Virus record (IMG/VR): IMGVR_UViG_3300028030_000009
Span: 1-64,000 of that record
DNA length: 64,000 nucleotides
Reading direction: 5' to 3' (one strand)
Origin: a virus
Shown here: positions 5,409-17,668 of the stretch, piece after piece
How the letters are laid out: every line of letters begins with the position of its first letter
Numbering within the stretch: the first letter of the stretch is position 1
Translations under genes and position numbers: made by a program
The notes under the pieces: model-generated
Databases searched by the model: none
Told to the model about the DNA's origin: nothing
Seen by the model: only the letters and a program-made list of their open reading frames with translations

Positions 5409-6122
5409 TTAATCCTTTTCAAAATGTGATTTTTCTGGGAATAGCGACTTTACGTACTCAAAAATACCGCTTCCCTTGCCTTTTTCATCGAAGTTGATGA
5501 ACTTTTTACCTTTGGCCTCTTCTGGGTTGAATGGCCTTTCGTCATATCTTGCTGCACGAACATTCTTGCAAGAGCCGTTAGCCTCTCCTACTCCCATGTA
5601 GTTGTACAGGAAGTTCTCCTCGCCACCAAGTGGATTGTTCTGTATGTCAGCCATACGGTAAATCTCCATCCAAGCTTTTGAGTTCACCCAGTGAGGAATG
5701 TGTGACACGTAGTTATATGCGCTTAGGCCAAGTGATTCGAGAATCTCTTTTCCTTTTCGCAAGTCTTGCTGGAACTTCCTAGGTCCGAAATTCTTTATCT
5801 TTGACAGGTCTTCAAGATAGTAAATCTTTCTCAGCTCGTCGTCATACAGGTCTGTTATCGCAAACATATCATCATGCCAAACAACAAACTCATCAAACAT
5901 GAATGCACCAATATTGAATGCATTGATTATGTTTCTCGCTTTGATATCAGAGCATTGCTGTAGCGGCAAAAAGCTCACATTGGTCAACCACTCAGGCTTT
6001 TCTCCGACAACGAGTATCTCTTCTTTATTTACTACATGCTTTTCTATTGAGCGCAAAGCATATCTAAGCTCGTCTGTTCCCTGGTGCTTCGGTGGAATCT
6101 TGTACGGAATTACTATATTCAT
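5409..6122 (-). CDS. Stealth-like (phospho)glycosyltransferase
   Basis: 237 aa. Residues 17-29 (DELRYALRSIEKH), the following ILVVGEKPEWLTNV, HDDMF at 83-87 and HIPHW at 141-145 follow the order of conserved regions CR2 and CR3 of the Stealth sugar-phosphate transferase family and its phage relatives annotated as glycosyltransferases. This is a GT-A-like nucleotide-sugar fold in which the Asp pair binds metal. The CR1 region is reduced to MNIVIPYKI. The gene is directly downstream of the Ser/Gly-repeat protein gene (56 nt, with a strong hairpin between them), so that protein is a plausible acceptor. Alternatives are modification of other capsid/tail proteins or of host glycans. RBS TTAGGAG. 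Confidence 0.78.
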   Translation of the reverse strand: MNIVIPYKIPPKHQGTDELRYALRSIEKHVVNKEEILVVGEKPEWLTNVSFLPLQQCSDIKARNIINAFNIGAFMFDEFVVWHDDMFAITDLYDDELRKIYYLEDLSKIKNFGPRKFQQDLRKGKEILESLGLSAYNYVSHIPHWVNSKAWMEIYRMADIQNNPLGGEENFLYNYMGVGEANGSCKNVRAARYDERPFNPEEAKGKKFINFDEKGKGSGIFEYVKSLFPEKSHFEKD

Positions 6123-6138
6123 TGGCTCTCCTAATAAT

Positions 6139-6174
6139 GCTTATCGAGAGGGCGAGAAGGCCCTCTCTGTAAGC
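6139..6174. terminator. Strong intergenic hairpin
   Basis: Inverted repeat between the Ser-rich protein gene and the transferase gene: outer arms GCTTA/TAAGC (6139-6143, 6170-6174) and inner arms GAGAGGGC/GCCCTCTC (6146-6153, 6160-6167), with a 6-nt loop. No uridine run follows on either strand, so it may be a weak terminator, an RNA-processing site or a transcript-stabilising 3' end rather than a full intrinsic terminator. Confidence 0.7.
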
Positions 6175-6178
6175 ACTA

Positions 6179-7249
6179 TTATGACAATTCGCCCTCTCCA
6201 GAGCCGCTTCCAGAACCAGAACCAGAAGCAGATGCGGAACCAGAAGCAGATGCACTTCCGCTCCCACTTGCAGAGCCTGATGCAGAACCACTGGCTGATG
6301 CAGAGCCGCTGGCTGAAGCTGAACCTGATGCTGAACCACTACCAGACGCAGAGGCGCTTCCACTTGCGGAACCGCTACCACTAGCAGAAGCAGAGCCACT
6401 ACCTGACGAGCTTCCATCGCTAGAACCGCTACCAGAGGCAGACGCAGAACCAGATGCGGACGCAGAACCTGATGCAGAACCAGAGCCTGACGTAGATGCT
6501 TCTCCATCAGCAGAGCCGCTACCAGAAGCGGATGCCGAGCCAGATGCGGAAGCAGAGCCGCTGCCACTAGCGCTACCTTCTCCTGAACCAGAAGCCGAAG
6601 CGCTTCCACTTGATGAGCCGCTACCAGAAGCAGAGCCTTCTGAGCTGCCATCACCAGAAGCTGAGCCGCTACCGCTTGCGCTGCCTGAACCGGATGTGCT
6701 TCCATCAGAAGAGCCTTCTCCGCTTCCAGACGATGATGTCTCTGCATCAACAACCGTTTCATCAACAACAACATACACAGGGTTTCCAAGTGCATCGTAC
6801 CATGTTGAGTCATAGTAGCACAGTGTTTTGTTTGTGGCGATATCGAACACCGCAAGGATTGTGTCACCTGGAAGGTCGCCACTTCCTACATAGAAATTTT
6901 CACCTTTGATGTCTTTTGCCAGAAGCTGTCCTTTAACATCGGAAGCTGCTCCGACAGCAGCAGAATACGACAGCGATTCTTCGTTAGAAAGTAGCTGCGA
7001 AACAAGCTCGTCGAGCCTAAACTCTGTCTCCTCAATAGCGTCGTAAAGAGTAACTGCACCCTCACCAGCAGGAGGAAGTTTGAAAAGCTTTGACTCTGTG
7101 TCGCTTTTTGCGAGAAGCAAATTTGCCAGCAACTTCAGAATGGCCATATTCTGGTCCATTTCATTGATTGTTAATGGTTCTTCTTTGTCTGTCCTAAATG
7201 TTACATTGCTGATTGCAAGATAATCTGATTGTGGTCCTGATGCTGCCAT
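6179..7249 (-). CDS. Virion-module protein with 180-residue Ser/Gly/Ala tract
   Basis: 356 aa in two parts. Residues 1-170 form an ordinary globular domain with a helical N-terminal half and a beta part near 120-165 (DTILAVFDIATNKTLCYYD). Residues 172-352 are almost pure dipeptide repeats in which the first position is Ser (sometimes Glu/Asp) and the second is Gly, Ala, Ser or Thr. Such tracts are extended and flexible. In bacterial serine-rich adhesins and Dictyostelium proteinases, similar tracts carry sugars on Ser. A predicted transferase gene lies immediately downstream. The protein sits after the portal gene, so it is likely a virion component, perhaps a spike or decoration. AAAAGGA RBS. 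Exact role unknown. Confidence 0.85.
   Translation of the reverse strand: MAASGPQSDYLAISNVTFRTDKEEPLTINEMDQNMAILKLLANLLLAKSDTESKLFKLPPAGEGAVTLYDAIEETEFRLDELVSQLLSNEESLSYSAAVGAASDVKGQLLAKDIKGENFYVGSGDLPGDTILAVFDIATNKTLCYYDSTWYDALGNPVYVVVDETVVDAETSSSGSGEGSSDGSTSGSGSASGSGSASGDGSSEGSASGSGSSSGSASASGSGEGSASGSGSASASGSASASGSGSADGEASTSGSGSASGSASASGSASASGSGSSDGSSSGSGSASASGSGSASGSASASGSGSASGSASASGSASASGSASGSASGSGSASASGSASASGSGSGSGSGEGELS
6194..6736 (-). repeat. Degenerate 6-bp Ser-Gly/Ala coding repeat
   Basis: About 540 bp of degenerate hexamer repeats encoding the Ser-(Gly/Ala) tract of the 6179-7249 gene. Several synonymous Ser, Gly and Ala codons are mixed, so the tract is conserved at protein level more than as exact DNA repeats. 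The opposite strand also stays open for long stretches and produces spurious frames. Confidence 0.85.
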
Positions 7250-14751: not shown

Positions 14752-14781
14752 TTGACAATCAAATGGATATCGGTGTACAAT
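14752..14781 (+). promoter_or_regulatory. Sigma70-type promoter TTGACA-N18-TACAAT
   Basis: A consensus -35 (TTGACA, 14752-14757), 18-bp spacer and a near-consensus -10 (TACAAT, 14776-14781). It is one of the few promoters in the window with a real -35. The expected start is near 14788, only about 15 nt before an intrinsic terminator, so it would make a transcript of about 45 nt unless read through. Confidence 0.65.
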
Positions 14782-14801
14782 GACATTGCTACTTTTTATG
14801 T

Positions 14802-14832
14802 CAGGGCCTCACTGCCCTGTCTCTTCTTTTTT
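14802..14832 (+). terminator. Rho-independent terminator
   Basis: Stem CAGGGC/GCCCTG (14802-14807, 14814-14819) with a 6-nt loop, followed by TCTCTTCTTTTTT. It ends transcripts from the 14272-14694 genes and from the promoter at 14752. Confidence 0.75.
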
Positions 14833-14998: not shown

Positions 14999-15880
14999 AT
15001 GAGGATACCTGTGTTTTCAACTGGGGATATAACAATCGGCTCAATTGACAAAGAGTGGCTGAAGAATAACAACCCACTCATAAAATCATCTACAGGGGAA
15101 AGTGGAGCTCGAATTCCAGCTGTCGCTGTTGCGTATAAGCCTGATATCTTATATGATGACGGGGAAATAATTGTTCCAGGTGATTCGTTCTTCTTGATGT
15201 ACAGGTTTGACTTGTCGCATTTTAGGGGCGAGAAGGTGCCAATCGAAATTATCCCATATGAGCGTGATTCTGATATGGCATGGGTTCTTGTCGAGTATAC
15301 AAGATGCTTCAAGCATAGGGACAAGGTGCTCTCTGAAATTTTTGACGAAATCGTAGGCTCAAGACCGTTGTTTCTTAGTGAGTACAGGCGTGTTCGCATA
15401 GAAGAGCTTGTAAACACTATGTGGTCAGACACAGAGTCACCATTGTTTAGGAAAATCAGCCTCACTCCCGGAGACGACGGAGAAATAACATGGTCTGGAG
15501 CACACAACTCACTAAGAAAACATCTGTTCTTTGATGCGGCATCCCCGTTCGTGGAAAGATTCACATTTGAGCAGCAGGCCAAAATCCTTATCTCATCTCT
15601 TACTGTCGCCAAAAGCATTAGTGGCTTCAAGGATGTACTCTGTGCACAGCTTGGGTTTGATGCAGTCATGATTGCAATTGAAGCTGCTCTGCAAAAGGTT
15701 CGTGATGTTATGTACTTTGACGAAATATACAACTACACCAAAGAGAGTATTCTTGTTCTTGGGGAAATCGACTGGAAAGAGAAGGACAGGTATAGAGGAG
15801 TATCTGGAAGGTCTACTCTATTTGAAGACATTCGGGAACATAGCGATAGATTTCACGACAAGCACTCTTCACATTCTTGA
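14999..15880 (+). CDS. Unknown 293-aa protein
   Basis: 293 aa from ATG at 14999 with AAGGAG upstream. Beta-rich N-terminal third (IPVFSTGDITIGSIDKEW, SFFLMYRFDLSHF), helical C-terminal half. No recognised motif or transmembrane segment. The stop codon lies within the upstream part of the next promoter (TGCTATAAT at 15889). Position on the rightward island next to other unknown genes gives no clear hint. It could be a structural protein expressed separately from the leftward operon. Confidence 0.8.
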   Translation: MRIPVFSTGDITIGSIDKEWLKNNNPLIKSSTGESGARIPAVAVAYKPDILYDDGEIIVPGDSFFLMYRFDLSHFRGEKVPIEIIPYERDSDMAWVLVEYTRCFKHRDKVLSEIFDEIVGSRPLFLSEYRRVRIEELVNTMWSDTESPLFRKISLTPGDDGEITWSGAHNSLRKHLFFDAASPFVERFTFEQQAKILISSLTVAKSISGFKDVLCAQLGFDAVMIAIEAALQKVRDVMYFDEIYNYTKESILVLGEIDWKEKDRYRGVSGRSTLFEDIREHSDRFHDKHSSHS

Positions 15881-15888
15881 AATAATAG

Positions 15889-15897
15889 TGCTATAAT
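15889..15897 (+). promoter_or_regulatory. Extended -10 promoter upstream of structured RNA
   Basis: TGCTATAAT with a possible TTCACA -35 18 bp upstream. The expected start (about 15903) is at the beginning of a strongly base-paired 200-nt non-coding stretch. Confidence 0.65.
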
Positions 15898-15902
15898 ACT
15901 CC

Positions 15903-16100
15903 CAAGGATGGTGGACGCCCACTAGTGTTCCTATCCCAGCCACTACTCCAATGGCGGTTGAGCTGAAACCTTGACTTATAGCCTATCGGCTAGGTTAAGG
16001 TTCGGTTCAGCCGCTACGGAAAAGCGCCGCCCACCGCTTAGAAAGTGGCTATCGTAGGGGGTTTGCGTGTTGTACGACCACACCCAAAAACCCCCAAAAC
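15903..16100 (+). ncRNA. Candidate structured non-coding RNA
   Basis: About 200 nt without a credible open frame that folds extensively by eye. Hairpin 1 is GTGG/CCAC (15911-15922). A junction stem AGCCAC/GTGGCT (15938-15943 with 16045-16050) encloses a long hairpin (GCGG/CCGC 15954 and 16011; CTGAA/TTCAG; ACCTT/AAGGT; TAGCC/GGCTA with loop TATC) and hairpin AAGCG/CGCTT (16022-16026, 16035-16039). The loop of the latter contains CCAC, which could pair with GGTGG at 15910 as a pseudoknot. A last stem GGGGGTTT/AAACCCCC (16057-16064, 16088-16095) closes the 3' side. It starts at a TGCTATAAT promoter. It matches none of the known RNA families I can recall. Role unknown. Confidence 0.55.
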
Positions 16101-16290
16101 CCCAAAACAAAACAACAACACTTCTTCTCAATACTACTATTCCTTTCCTATCTATACTCACTATATGATTCTTTGGCTGTTAGTACTCCTTTAATGGGGT
16201 TTGGTTTGCTTTGTATGTATATGGGTTGGGGTGGCTCCATATGTCCAGAACACTTAGGCCAGAGCACCTATGTTATACGGAACACCAAAA
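16101..16290. other. Gene-free region with short repeats
   Basis: No credible gene. A long plus-strand frame exists here (from 16173) but lacks a ribosome site and runs through the palindrome array. Beginning just upstream (16083-16104) is a run of C-blocks separated by A-blocks. Two short motifs occur twice: CTATGTTATAC at 16268-16278 and 16389-16399, and GAGCACCT at 16262-16269 and 16421-16428. With the downstream palindrome array this may be a replication origin or control region. Confidence 0.4.
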
Positions 16291-16295
16291 ATCGT

Positions 16296-16770
16296 ACTAC
16301 AACCCGTAGTAAGCGTTTTTTTAGCAAAAATGAGTTTTCTACACCTTGGTGTCAAAAATATGTGTGGGCTTTTGTTGGTTATGCTCTGCTATGTTATACC
16401 TCTATACCTATTTTGGTCCGGAGCACCTGTCTTTTTCCCTATGATAGGGCACATTGGGCTTTTCTACCAATCAATTCTCGCTTAGTGTTTGCAAGAAACA
16501 ATACAGTACTACGGGTTGTAGAAAGTACTTGCGTATTGTTTTTTCTACGGGTTGTAGAACGCTTCTCTTGACAACCTTTTCTACGGGTTGTAGAAAATAC
16601 ATACAATCCTATCTGCTCTCTTGCAGCAAAGGTGATATCTCAACTTTTTACTACGGGTTGTAGAAAACAAAAATCATACTATTGTCTACGGGGTGTAGTA
16701 ATGGTATAATTGCAATACTGACTACGGGGTGTAGAAAGCTAGCTTTTAAATACTTTACTACGGGTCGTAG
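16296..16770 (+). repeat. Array of 17-bp palindromic sites, 36-bp period
   Basis: Core CTACGGGTTGTAG, usually extended to TTCTAC-GGGTT-GTAGAA, a dyad with a 5-bp centre. Plus-orientation cores begin at 16509, 16545, 16581, 16651, 16686, 16722 and 16758, that is at steps of 36, 36, 70, 35, 36 and 36 bp. One inverted copy (ACTACAACCCGTAGT) is at 16296-16310. The last copies vary at the centre (GGGGT, GGGTC). One copy lies inside the spacer of a promoter (16682-16710) and another overlaps TTGACA-N17-TAGAAA (16568-16596), so binding would block transcription. It is best read as a multi-operator or iteron array upstream of the 16791 gene. Confidence 0.9.
16682..16710 (+). promoter_or_regulatory. 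Promoter overlapped by palindromic operator
   Basis: TTGTCT (16682-16687), 17-bp spacer, then TGG TATAAT (box 16705-16710). The palindrome core 16686-16698 fills the spacer. It probably drives the 16791-17668 gene pair and would be repressed by a protein bound to the array. Confidence 0.65.
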
Positions 16771-16790
16771 AAAAAAATAAGGATTGAAAA

Positions 16791-17027
16791 ATGGAAGCTC
16801 TTGTTGATGTAGATGGTAGAGAGATAAACGTTGGAGACATTGTAGAGGAAGATGGGCATCTCTTTGAGATAGTGTGGCACAATGGAGAGTACATGGCTAA
16901 GTACTTCTATCCTGATGAGAGTAGAATCGGGAGCCTTGCTGATGTAACTTCAGAAGGTATCTGGCATAATTATGGATTGAAGGTTGTATCTTCCTGCAAC
17001 GAAAACATCGATAGGATTCTCAAATGA
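16791..17027 (+). CDS. Small YopX-like protein
   Basis: 78 aa. DVDGREINVGDIVEEDG followed by FEIVWHNGEYMAKYFYP follows the pattern of YopX-type small phage proteins (DxxGxxIxxGDIV...V.w..g.y), which are of unknown function. AAGGA ribosome site 7 nt before ATG. Placed immediately after the palindrome array, and its stop overlaps the next ATG (ATGA), so it forms a regulated two-gene unit. It could be the array-binding protein, but it has no visible helix-turn-helix. Confidence 0.75.
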   Translation: MEALVDVDGREINVGDIVEEDGHLFEIVWHNGEYMAKYFYPDESRIGSLADVTSEGIWHNYGLKVVSSCNENIDRILK

Positions 17028-17668
17028 CATTCTCAGAGTTGAAGAGGAAAGCATATAATGAGGGCATGACTCTTGTTCCGTTGTATATACTTGTTGAAGA
17101 TTGGGGCGGGAGGCTATTCGGGAAAGAGCGGCTGTACAGAAAGAAGGATTTGATTGAAGGACCAATCCGTGTTCTGTCTTCCGATGAGATACGGTACAAC
17201 TTTGCTTTCCCGAACCCATTGATTGAGCCAGCTACAGTTAAGTACTCACCTACTATTCTCAAAAGACAGATTCTTACATCACGCTGCATCATCTTTCCAG
17301 GAAGAAAGACGTTCAATGGTGTTGCTTGGTATGCGCAGACTGACAGGAAGATTACAGTTCCACCATTCCACTCTTTTGTTGTTGACCCGAAAGGAGTTGA
17401 GCGCTCTGTGAGACTAATGCTTTGGTTTAACAGGAGAGATGTCATTGATGCAATCAATACAGAAATGCCGAAGAATGGAATGACAATATCTTTTATGAGA
17501 GAGCTGCCTGTGCCAGTAAATGAAACACCGAACGATGTGGTCGAAGAGTTTGTGGATTTAAACAACAAGAGGATGCAGCTTCTCTCTGGTGTTGAGATGA
17601 CATCGTCTAACATAAGAAAGCTTATTGAAAGATACGACAGGGCTGGGGAGGGGAATGCCCCAGCCTGA
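17024..17668 (+). CDS. Unknown 214-aa protein under array control
   Basis: 214 aa, mixed alpha/beta, basic N-terminus (ELKRKAYNEG), with GPIRVLSSDEIRYNFAFPNP and FNGVAWYAQTDRKITVPP in the middle and a helical C-terminus. No family recognised. Translationally coupled to the 16791 gene through an ATGA overlap. Its last codons form an 8-bp GC-rich hairpin (GGCTGGGG/CCCCAGCC, 17641-17665) that spans almost to the stop codon and may pause ribosomes or stabilise the transcript end. Confidence 0.8.
   Translation: MTFSELKRKAYNEGMTLVPLYILVEDWGGRLFGKERLYRKKDLIEGPIRVLSSDEIRYNFAFPNPLIEPATVKYSPTILKRQILTSRCIIFPGRKTFNGVAWYAQTDRKITVPPFHSFVVDPKGVERSVRLMLWFNRRDVIDAINTEMPKNGMTISFMRELPVPVNETPNDVVEEFVDLNNKRMQLLSGVEMTSSNIRKLIERYDRAGEGNAPA

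Follow-up and report, generated by a model that had tools for sequence, protein, structure and literature searches.

The locus raises the question of what a phage promoter transcribes when it is followed by about 200 nt of tightly folding sequence, and what a product of this kind would do. The stretch of DNA that was analysed (the window) has 64 kb and is taken from a 77-kb virus record. It belongs to a large tailed phage with genes for the portal, DnaB, primase and both ribonucleotide reductase subunits, and among the records of related phages the longest has 187 kb. Named phages are distant: the portals of Vibrio phage D69 and Salmonella phage Arash share about 25% identity with the one encoded here. 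Few descriptions exist of structured RNAs from large uncultivated phages.

Promoter and predicted fold

A first-pass annotation of the window had proposed a promoter followed by about 200 nt without a credible gene, and both parts of this proposal were borne out. The promoter matches the sigma-70-type consensus in 11 of 12 positions and has an extended −10 element (TG); between 14.6 and 16.85 kb only one other site, at 14752, has an equal score. Coding genes on the + strand of the RNA stretch were examined and none was credible. A search for tRNA and tmRNA genes in the window and in two related phage records (L003 and L004, see below) found none. The start of the RNA at about 15904 was deduced from the −10 box, which ends at 15897, and the 3′ end given here is likewise a prediction. 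The features of the locus are:

15868..15897, + strand: sigma-70-type promoter TTCACA-N18-tgcTATAAT with TG extension, with counterparts in relatives
15904..16110, + strand: predicted RNA body, supported by its fold and by syntenic homologues
15906..15936, + strand: P1, 5′ hairpin with the first GCCCAC (15917-15922), supported by the fold and by a block common to three phages
15938..15944, + strand: P2, 5′ strand of the closing stem, pairing with 16044-16050
15947..16020, + strand: P3, long hairpin of variable length, supported by the fold, with short equivalents in L003 and L004
16022..16039, + strand: P4, hairpin with the 8-nt loop CCGCCCAC and the second GCCCAC (16029-16034)
16044..16050, + strand: P2, 3′ strand of the closing stem, supported by pairing across three phages
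16057..16095, + strand: P5, 3′ hairpin GGGGGTTT...AAACCCCC without U-run, supported by the fold, with a strong counterpart in L003
16078..16157, + strand: C-rich, G-poor tract, a possible Rho-utilisation region, supported by its C−G excess
L003, about 2461-2285, minus strand: RNA homologue, supported by synteny and a sequence model
L004, about 2355-2220, minus strand: RNA homologue, supported by synteny and a sequence model

For positions 15900-16110 (+ strand) a minimum free energy of −92.5 kcal/mol was calculated, compared to −59.3 ± 4.4 kcal/mol for dinucleotide shuffles (z = −7.5; 0 of 200 shuffles were as low). The fold is strongly strand-asymmetric, with z = −2.0 for the opposite strand. 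Among 4,255 stretches of 210 nt sampled from both strands of the window, this one had the lowest energy, and it remained one of the two most extreme places in a ranking corrected for G+C content; the other lies near 6.1 kb on the minus strand and is coding. The second most stable fold of the window was seen there (6041-6340, minus strand), within a G+C-richer coding stretch.

All stems named in the first-pass annotation exist where it had placed them: AGCCAC (15938-15943) with GTGGCT (16045-16050), the long hairpin (15947-16020), the hairpin AAGCG/CGCTT (16022-16039) and P5, in which GGGGGTTT (16057-16064) pairs with AAACCCCC (16088-16095). We could not uphold the pseudoknot that it had suggested between GGTGG at 15910 and the loop of P4. 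These bases can pair on paper, yet GGTGG sits in the stable stem of P1, and the equivalent bases in the relatives (CGGTGA and AGGTTA) are unable to pair in this way.

P5 has no U-run, and a terminator with a good U-run is also missing downstream of the fold. For this reason, we propose a Rho-type end. Rho-utilisation regions are C-rich and G-poor, and in a measure of composition the tract at 16078..16157 reaches a C−G excess of 31 in 80 nt, a value attained by a fraction of 8e-6 of 80-nt windows. The best C-rich, G-poor 80 nt rank in the top 0.0008% in the window, 0.002% (2e-5) in L004 and 0.6% (6e-3) in L003.

Homologues in related phages and covariation

Protein searches of viral contigs with the two + strand neighbours gave no relatives, and the portal was used to find them instead. 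Two large phages, L003 (187 kb) and L004 (62 kb), have portals that are 63-65% identical and carry a diverged copy of the RNA in a syntenic gap. The gene order around the RNA is kept in both, with a gene of the 9977 type on one side and genes of the 17024 and 18159 types on the other strand; the succession of RNA, 17024-type gene and 18159-type gene is common to all three phages. In L003 and L004 the gap before the 17024-type gene contains GCTAYAATAC-N6-GGANGGT-N4/5-GCCCACAANGGTTT, followed by a second GCCCAC. Within the 46-column 5′ block of the RNA, 26 columns are invariant across the three phages, compared to an identity of 20-25% among relatives for the nearest downstream protein. A −10 box and a −35-like hexamer are kept upstream of the RNA in 3/3 phages; the promoter at the equivalent position is TTGCAG-N17-TATAAT in L003 and TTGCAT-N17-TACAAT in L004.

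Besides the promoter, all three phages have P1 with GCCCAC, P2 around a variable P3, P4, whose 8-nt loop has GCCCAC at its end, and a downstream tract rich in C and poor in G. The P1 block GGANGGT-N4/5-GCCCACNANNGTT is common to the three and forms a hairpin in each, with a different register of the inner pairs. P3 has 74 nt in the window but less than 20 nt in L003 and L004. P5 is strong in the window and in L003, and weak or not clear in L004.

How far this RNA reaches beyond the three phages was followed at several levels. A pattern of the −10 box and P1 had 11 matches in 2.9 million viral contigs, and two of them were exactly the L003 and L004 copies; the remaining nine looked like chance, and never combined the promoter, both motifs and the fold. 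Over all pattern scans of viral contigs (7, 17 and 11 matches) the candidates apart from L003 and L004 were rejected as coding sequence or chance, by eye from sequence and fold. When a sequence model of the RNA was run against five phage records, it matched exactly three places, in the window, L003 and L004. A genome scan with the portal alignment found nothing, and six matches of a genome scan with the RNA pattern were judged to be chance (at most 18 bits compared to 38-42, and without −10 box). Nucleotide searches gave no match in named phages with the window and L003 RNAs, and none in plasmids with the 5′ block. In a further relative, G003, whose portal is about 60% identical, the locus is covered and the RNA is missing: the gap there measures about 560 nt (30% G+C) and contains other hairpins, but neither GCCCAC nor a convincing match to the model. 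G004 breaks off before the locus. Of the four phages whose sequence includes the locus, three thus have the RNA.

In order to compare the pairing, the isolated cores of the three phages were folded, and they share one lowest-energy form in which P2 closes P3 and P4. Shuffles that kept both motifs gave this architecture in 1, 0 and 0 of 600 cases for the three phages, and a five-pair stem on an 8-nt loop in 0.8%, 1.2% and 0.4%. For P4, 15/15 cells are paired and 5/5 pairs have changed on both sides, a covariation score that was reached by 0/500 shuffles. For P2, 21/21 cells are paired and double compensatory changes are seen in 4/7 pairs, counted on a hand alignment in which a small internal loop of L003 was left out; exchange of the 3′ strand of P2 between phages lowered the paired count in every case. 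Pair counts were not taken from a full-length MAFFT alignment, in which P3 was misaligned. The comparison is based on three sequences and holds few independent comparisons. The fold of L004 on its own is no more stable than its shuffles, so that our case is built on architecture and covariation and not on energy. As the test of the proposed fold, a search for compensatory changes in related phages had been set beforehand, and such changes are present in both stems.

None of the Rfam 15 covariance models reached its curated threshold in the whole window. When E values up to 10 were admitted, the RNAs of the window, L003 and L004 gave sub-threshold matches only, to models of microRNAs, snoRNAs, leaders and sRNAs. 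The first-pass view of a structured non-coding RNA with its own promoter and of no known class is thus supported by syntenic homologues, covariation and the lack of an Rfam match, and the RNA has what defines a phage-encoded small RNA in the broad sense (own promoter, no coding frame, conserved fold). We consider it very probable that the RNA gene is real. As judged from sequence, a group of large tailed phages carries here a non-coding RNA gene that stands on its own and belongs to an undescribed, uncatalogued family.

The palindrome array and the following gene

Downstream of the RNA, at 16503-16772 of the window, seven copies of the interrupted palindrome CTACGGGTTGTAG are arranged mostly in steps of 35-36 nt around a TATAAT that precedes the gene at 16791. 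In the equivalent place L003 has ATACC-N6-GGTAT twice and L004 has repeats of the GTACGATA type, so that the sites differ from phage to phage while their position is kept. From the adjoining array a role of the RNA in replication control had been considered. This idea is not supported, since the palindromes differ in the relatives whereas the RNA is kept. The array is a separate, putatively operator-like element before the downstream gene, which has its own TATAAT. In the window this next gene is about 680 nt away from the RNA and has its own promoter-like and operator sequences, and the same applies to the next gene in L003.

The protein encoded behind the palindromes (17024-17668, + strand) is kept in four phages, with 20-25% identity in those aligned. 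The best match of its predicted structure was the specificity domain of type I restriction systems (HsdS-like; Foldseek probability 0.96, E 0.0045); because the model is of low confidence (pLDDT 59), such fold matches serve as leads only. It would be worth a look whether this protein is a one-domain HsdS-like DNA binder acting on its own palindromes.

The duplicated GCCCAC motif and possible modes of action

GCCCAC occurs twice in each of the three RNAs, in P1 and at the end of the 8-nt loop of P4. The hexamer is otherwise scarce: on either strand only four copies were found in 21 kb of L003 and four in 21 kb of L004, and two of each four lie in the RNA. That the stems drift while GCCCAC is kept twice points to recognition of the hexamer. 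The complement GTGGGC is present in none of the three RNAs, and GCCCAC is therefore not a kissing partner within or between RNA copies. There was also no excess of GTGGG or TGGGC at the gene starts of the three phages, which makes phage ribosome-binding sites unlikely targets; antisense action on these sites was accordingly rejected as a candidate. GTGGGC sites are few in the phages, and none was seen to be conserved in position. With no complement in the RNAs themselves and no excess at the starts of phage genes, the partner that is left is either a protein or a host RNA. A protein seems the better candidate to us, as the two copies of GCCCAC are preserved in contexts that differ.

We suggest the following mode of action. 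A host-type RNA polymerase would start near 15904 behind the sigma-70-type promoter and produce an RNA of roughly 200 nt, and transcription would probably end, in a Rho-type manner, in the C-rich, G-poor tract. The RNA would fold into P1 as 5′ hairpin, P5 as 3′ hairpin and, between them, a three-way junction in which P2 closes P3 and P4. This fold would serve as a scaffold in which the stem sequences are free to vary while the two copies of GCCCAC are kept, and these would be docking sites in trans for one partner. A protein of the host or the phage (bound by sequestration or on a scaffold) is a more probable partner than a phage mRNA. The RNA may be a regulator. That both motifs are presented in trans to one partner, a protein rather than phage mRNA, has in our estimate an even chance of being right. 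A bolder version, which we regard as rather unlikely, is that the RNA represents a new class in phages. Its junction fold would offer the two docking sites to a partner conserved from host to host, such as RNA polymerase, a component of the ribosome or a regulator that binds RNA, and would in this way take over a host process or switch the transcription of the phage. The promoter, the covarying fold and an invariant, duplicated loop motif amid drift provide a testable handle (GCCCAC, two sites) for the partner; if this is a host protein or RNA, the RNA would be an element of RNA-based host takeover.

Staphylococcal RNAs use C-rich loops to pair with Shine-Dalgarno sequences, and GCCCAC could likewise be the seed of a trans-acting antisense RNA for G-rich sites (GUGGGC) of host mRNAs. 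An exposed, invariant C-rich motif in two hairpins is built like known seed loops, the surrounding stems are free to vary, and the unpaired C-rich loop that characterises such antisense RNAs is conserved here among relatives (GCCCAC in the P4 loop, 3/3). Considering the lack of complement excess at the gene starts of the three phages and the few GTGGGC sites without conserved position, we rate this explanation as somewhat unlikely. Besides antisense action on host RNA, the main alternative is a role in cis on the following genes. The RNA would then be a leader of the + strand genes from 16791, its fold acting on RNA polymerase or Rho over the C-rich tract in a manner resembling antitermination or attenuation. 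The RNA does lie at the 5′ end of its predicted transcript, upstream of genes on the same strand in 3/3 phages and in a kept order with the 17024-type and 18159-type genes, and the possible Rho tract is directly 3′ of the fold. The put antitermination RNA of phage HK022, which likewise is folded and located at the 5′ end of its transcript, consists of two short hairpins with a cis action on RNA polymerase, whereas the RNA described here has a junction fold in which GCCCAC is duplicated. The distance to the next gene and its own TATAAT and operator array, the similar situation in L003, the lack of a good U-run terminator after the fold and the purely compositional nature of the Rho tract all argue against a leader, which we hold to be unlikely.

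A three-way junction, an own promoter and a position within about 7 kb of the portal gene recall the pRNA of phi29 (Rfam Phage_pRNA), likewise a small phage RNA encoded near structural genes, and could suggest a structural RNA of the virion or packaging motor. However, both loops carry GCCCAC and are mutually non-complementary, so that a loop-loop ring of the pRNA type is not available. Moreover, there is no Rfam match for the three RNAs (Phage_pRNA was unlisted for them even at E up to 10), and the related phage G003 does without the RNA. A packaging role is very unlikely in our view. Least probable of all is that the stretch is an element at the DNA level (an origin or other DNA structure) or chance pairing and not an RNA. 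The adjoining palindromes would fit a DNA element, but they are not conserved while the RNA is, and the promoter kept in 3/3 phages, the strand asymmetry of the fold, the double compensatory changes and the failure of shuffles to reproduce the architecture all speak for an RNA. We favour docking in trans.

Other phage RNAs differ more clearly. The large ornate RNAs GOLLD and ROOL are also phage-encoded and elaborately folded and have no known protein partner, but they comprise about 600-800 nt or more and are often found near tRNA islands (PMC12286853), whereas the RNA described here spans about 200 nt from promoter to G-poor tract and has no Rfam match, and neither the window nor L003 or L004 contains a tRNA. 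OOP, ipeX, VpdS and 24B_1 are phage-encoded regulatory small RNAs, some with their own promoter; the small RNAs reviewed together with them stem largely from temperate phages and prophages and act mainly by pairing (PMC12197685). We found no match to them, and no complementary target at the phage gene starts.

Further RNA candidates were observed near the locus. The stretch 14752-14832 (+ strand) of the window combines the promoter TTGACA-N18-TACAAT (11/12) with a strong hairpin of the terminator type (CAGGGC..GCCCTG), which comes within the next 50 nt and has a T-rich tail; this is a possible second, very short RNA gene. In L003 (about 2655-2530, minus strand) and L004 (about 2591-2450, minus strand), another RNA candidate with a promoter in front lies upstream of the main RNA; it consists of the hairpin GAGUAAAAAGCUC, with a compensatory outer pair (A-U versus C-G), and then a second hairpin. 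Directly 3′ of the stop codon of a small gene, TATTCCACTATGGGG is identical in L003 (about 2775-2735, minus strand) and L004 (about 2755-2720, minus strand), and in both phages it forms part of a hairpin.
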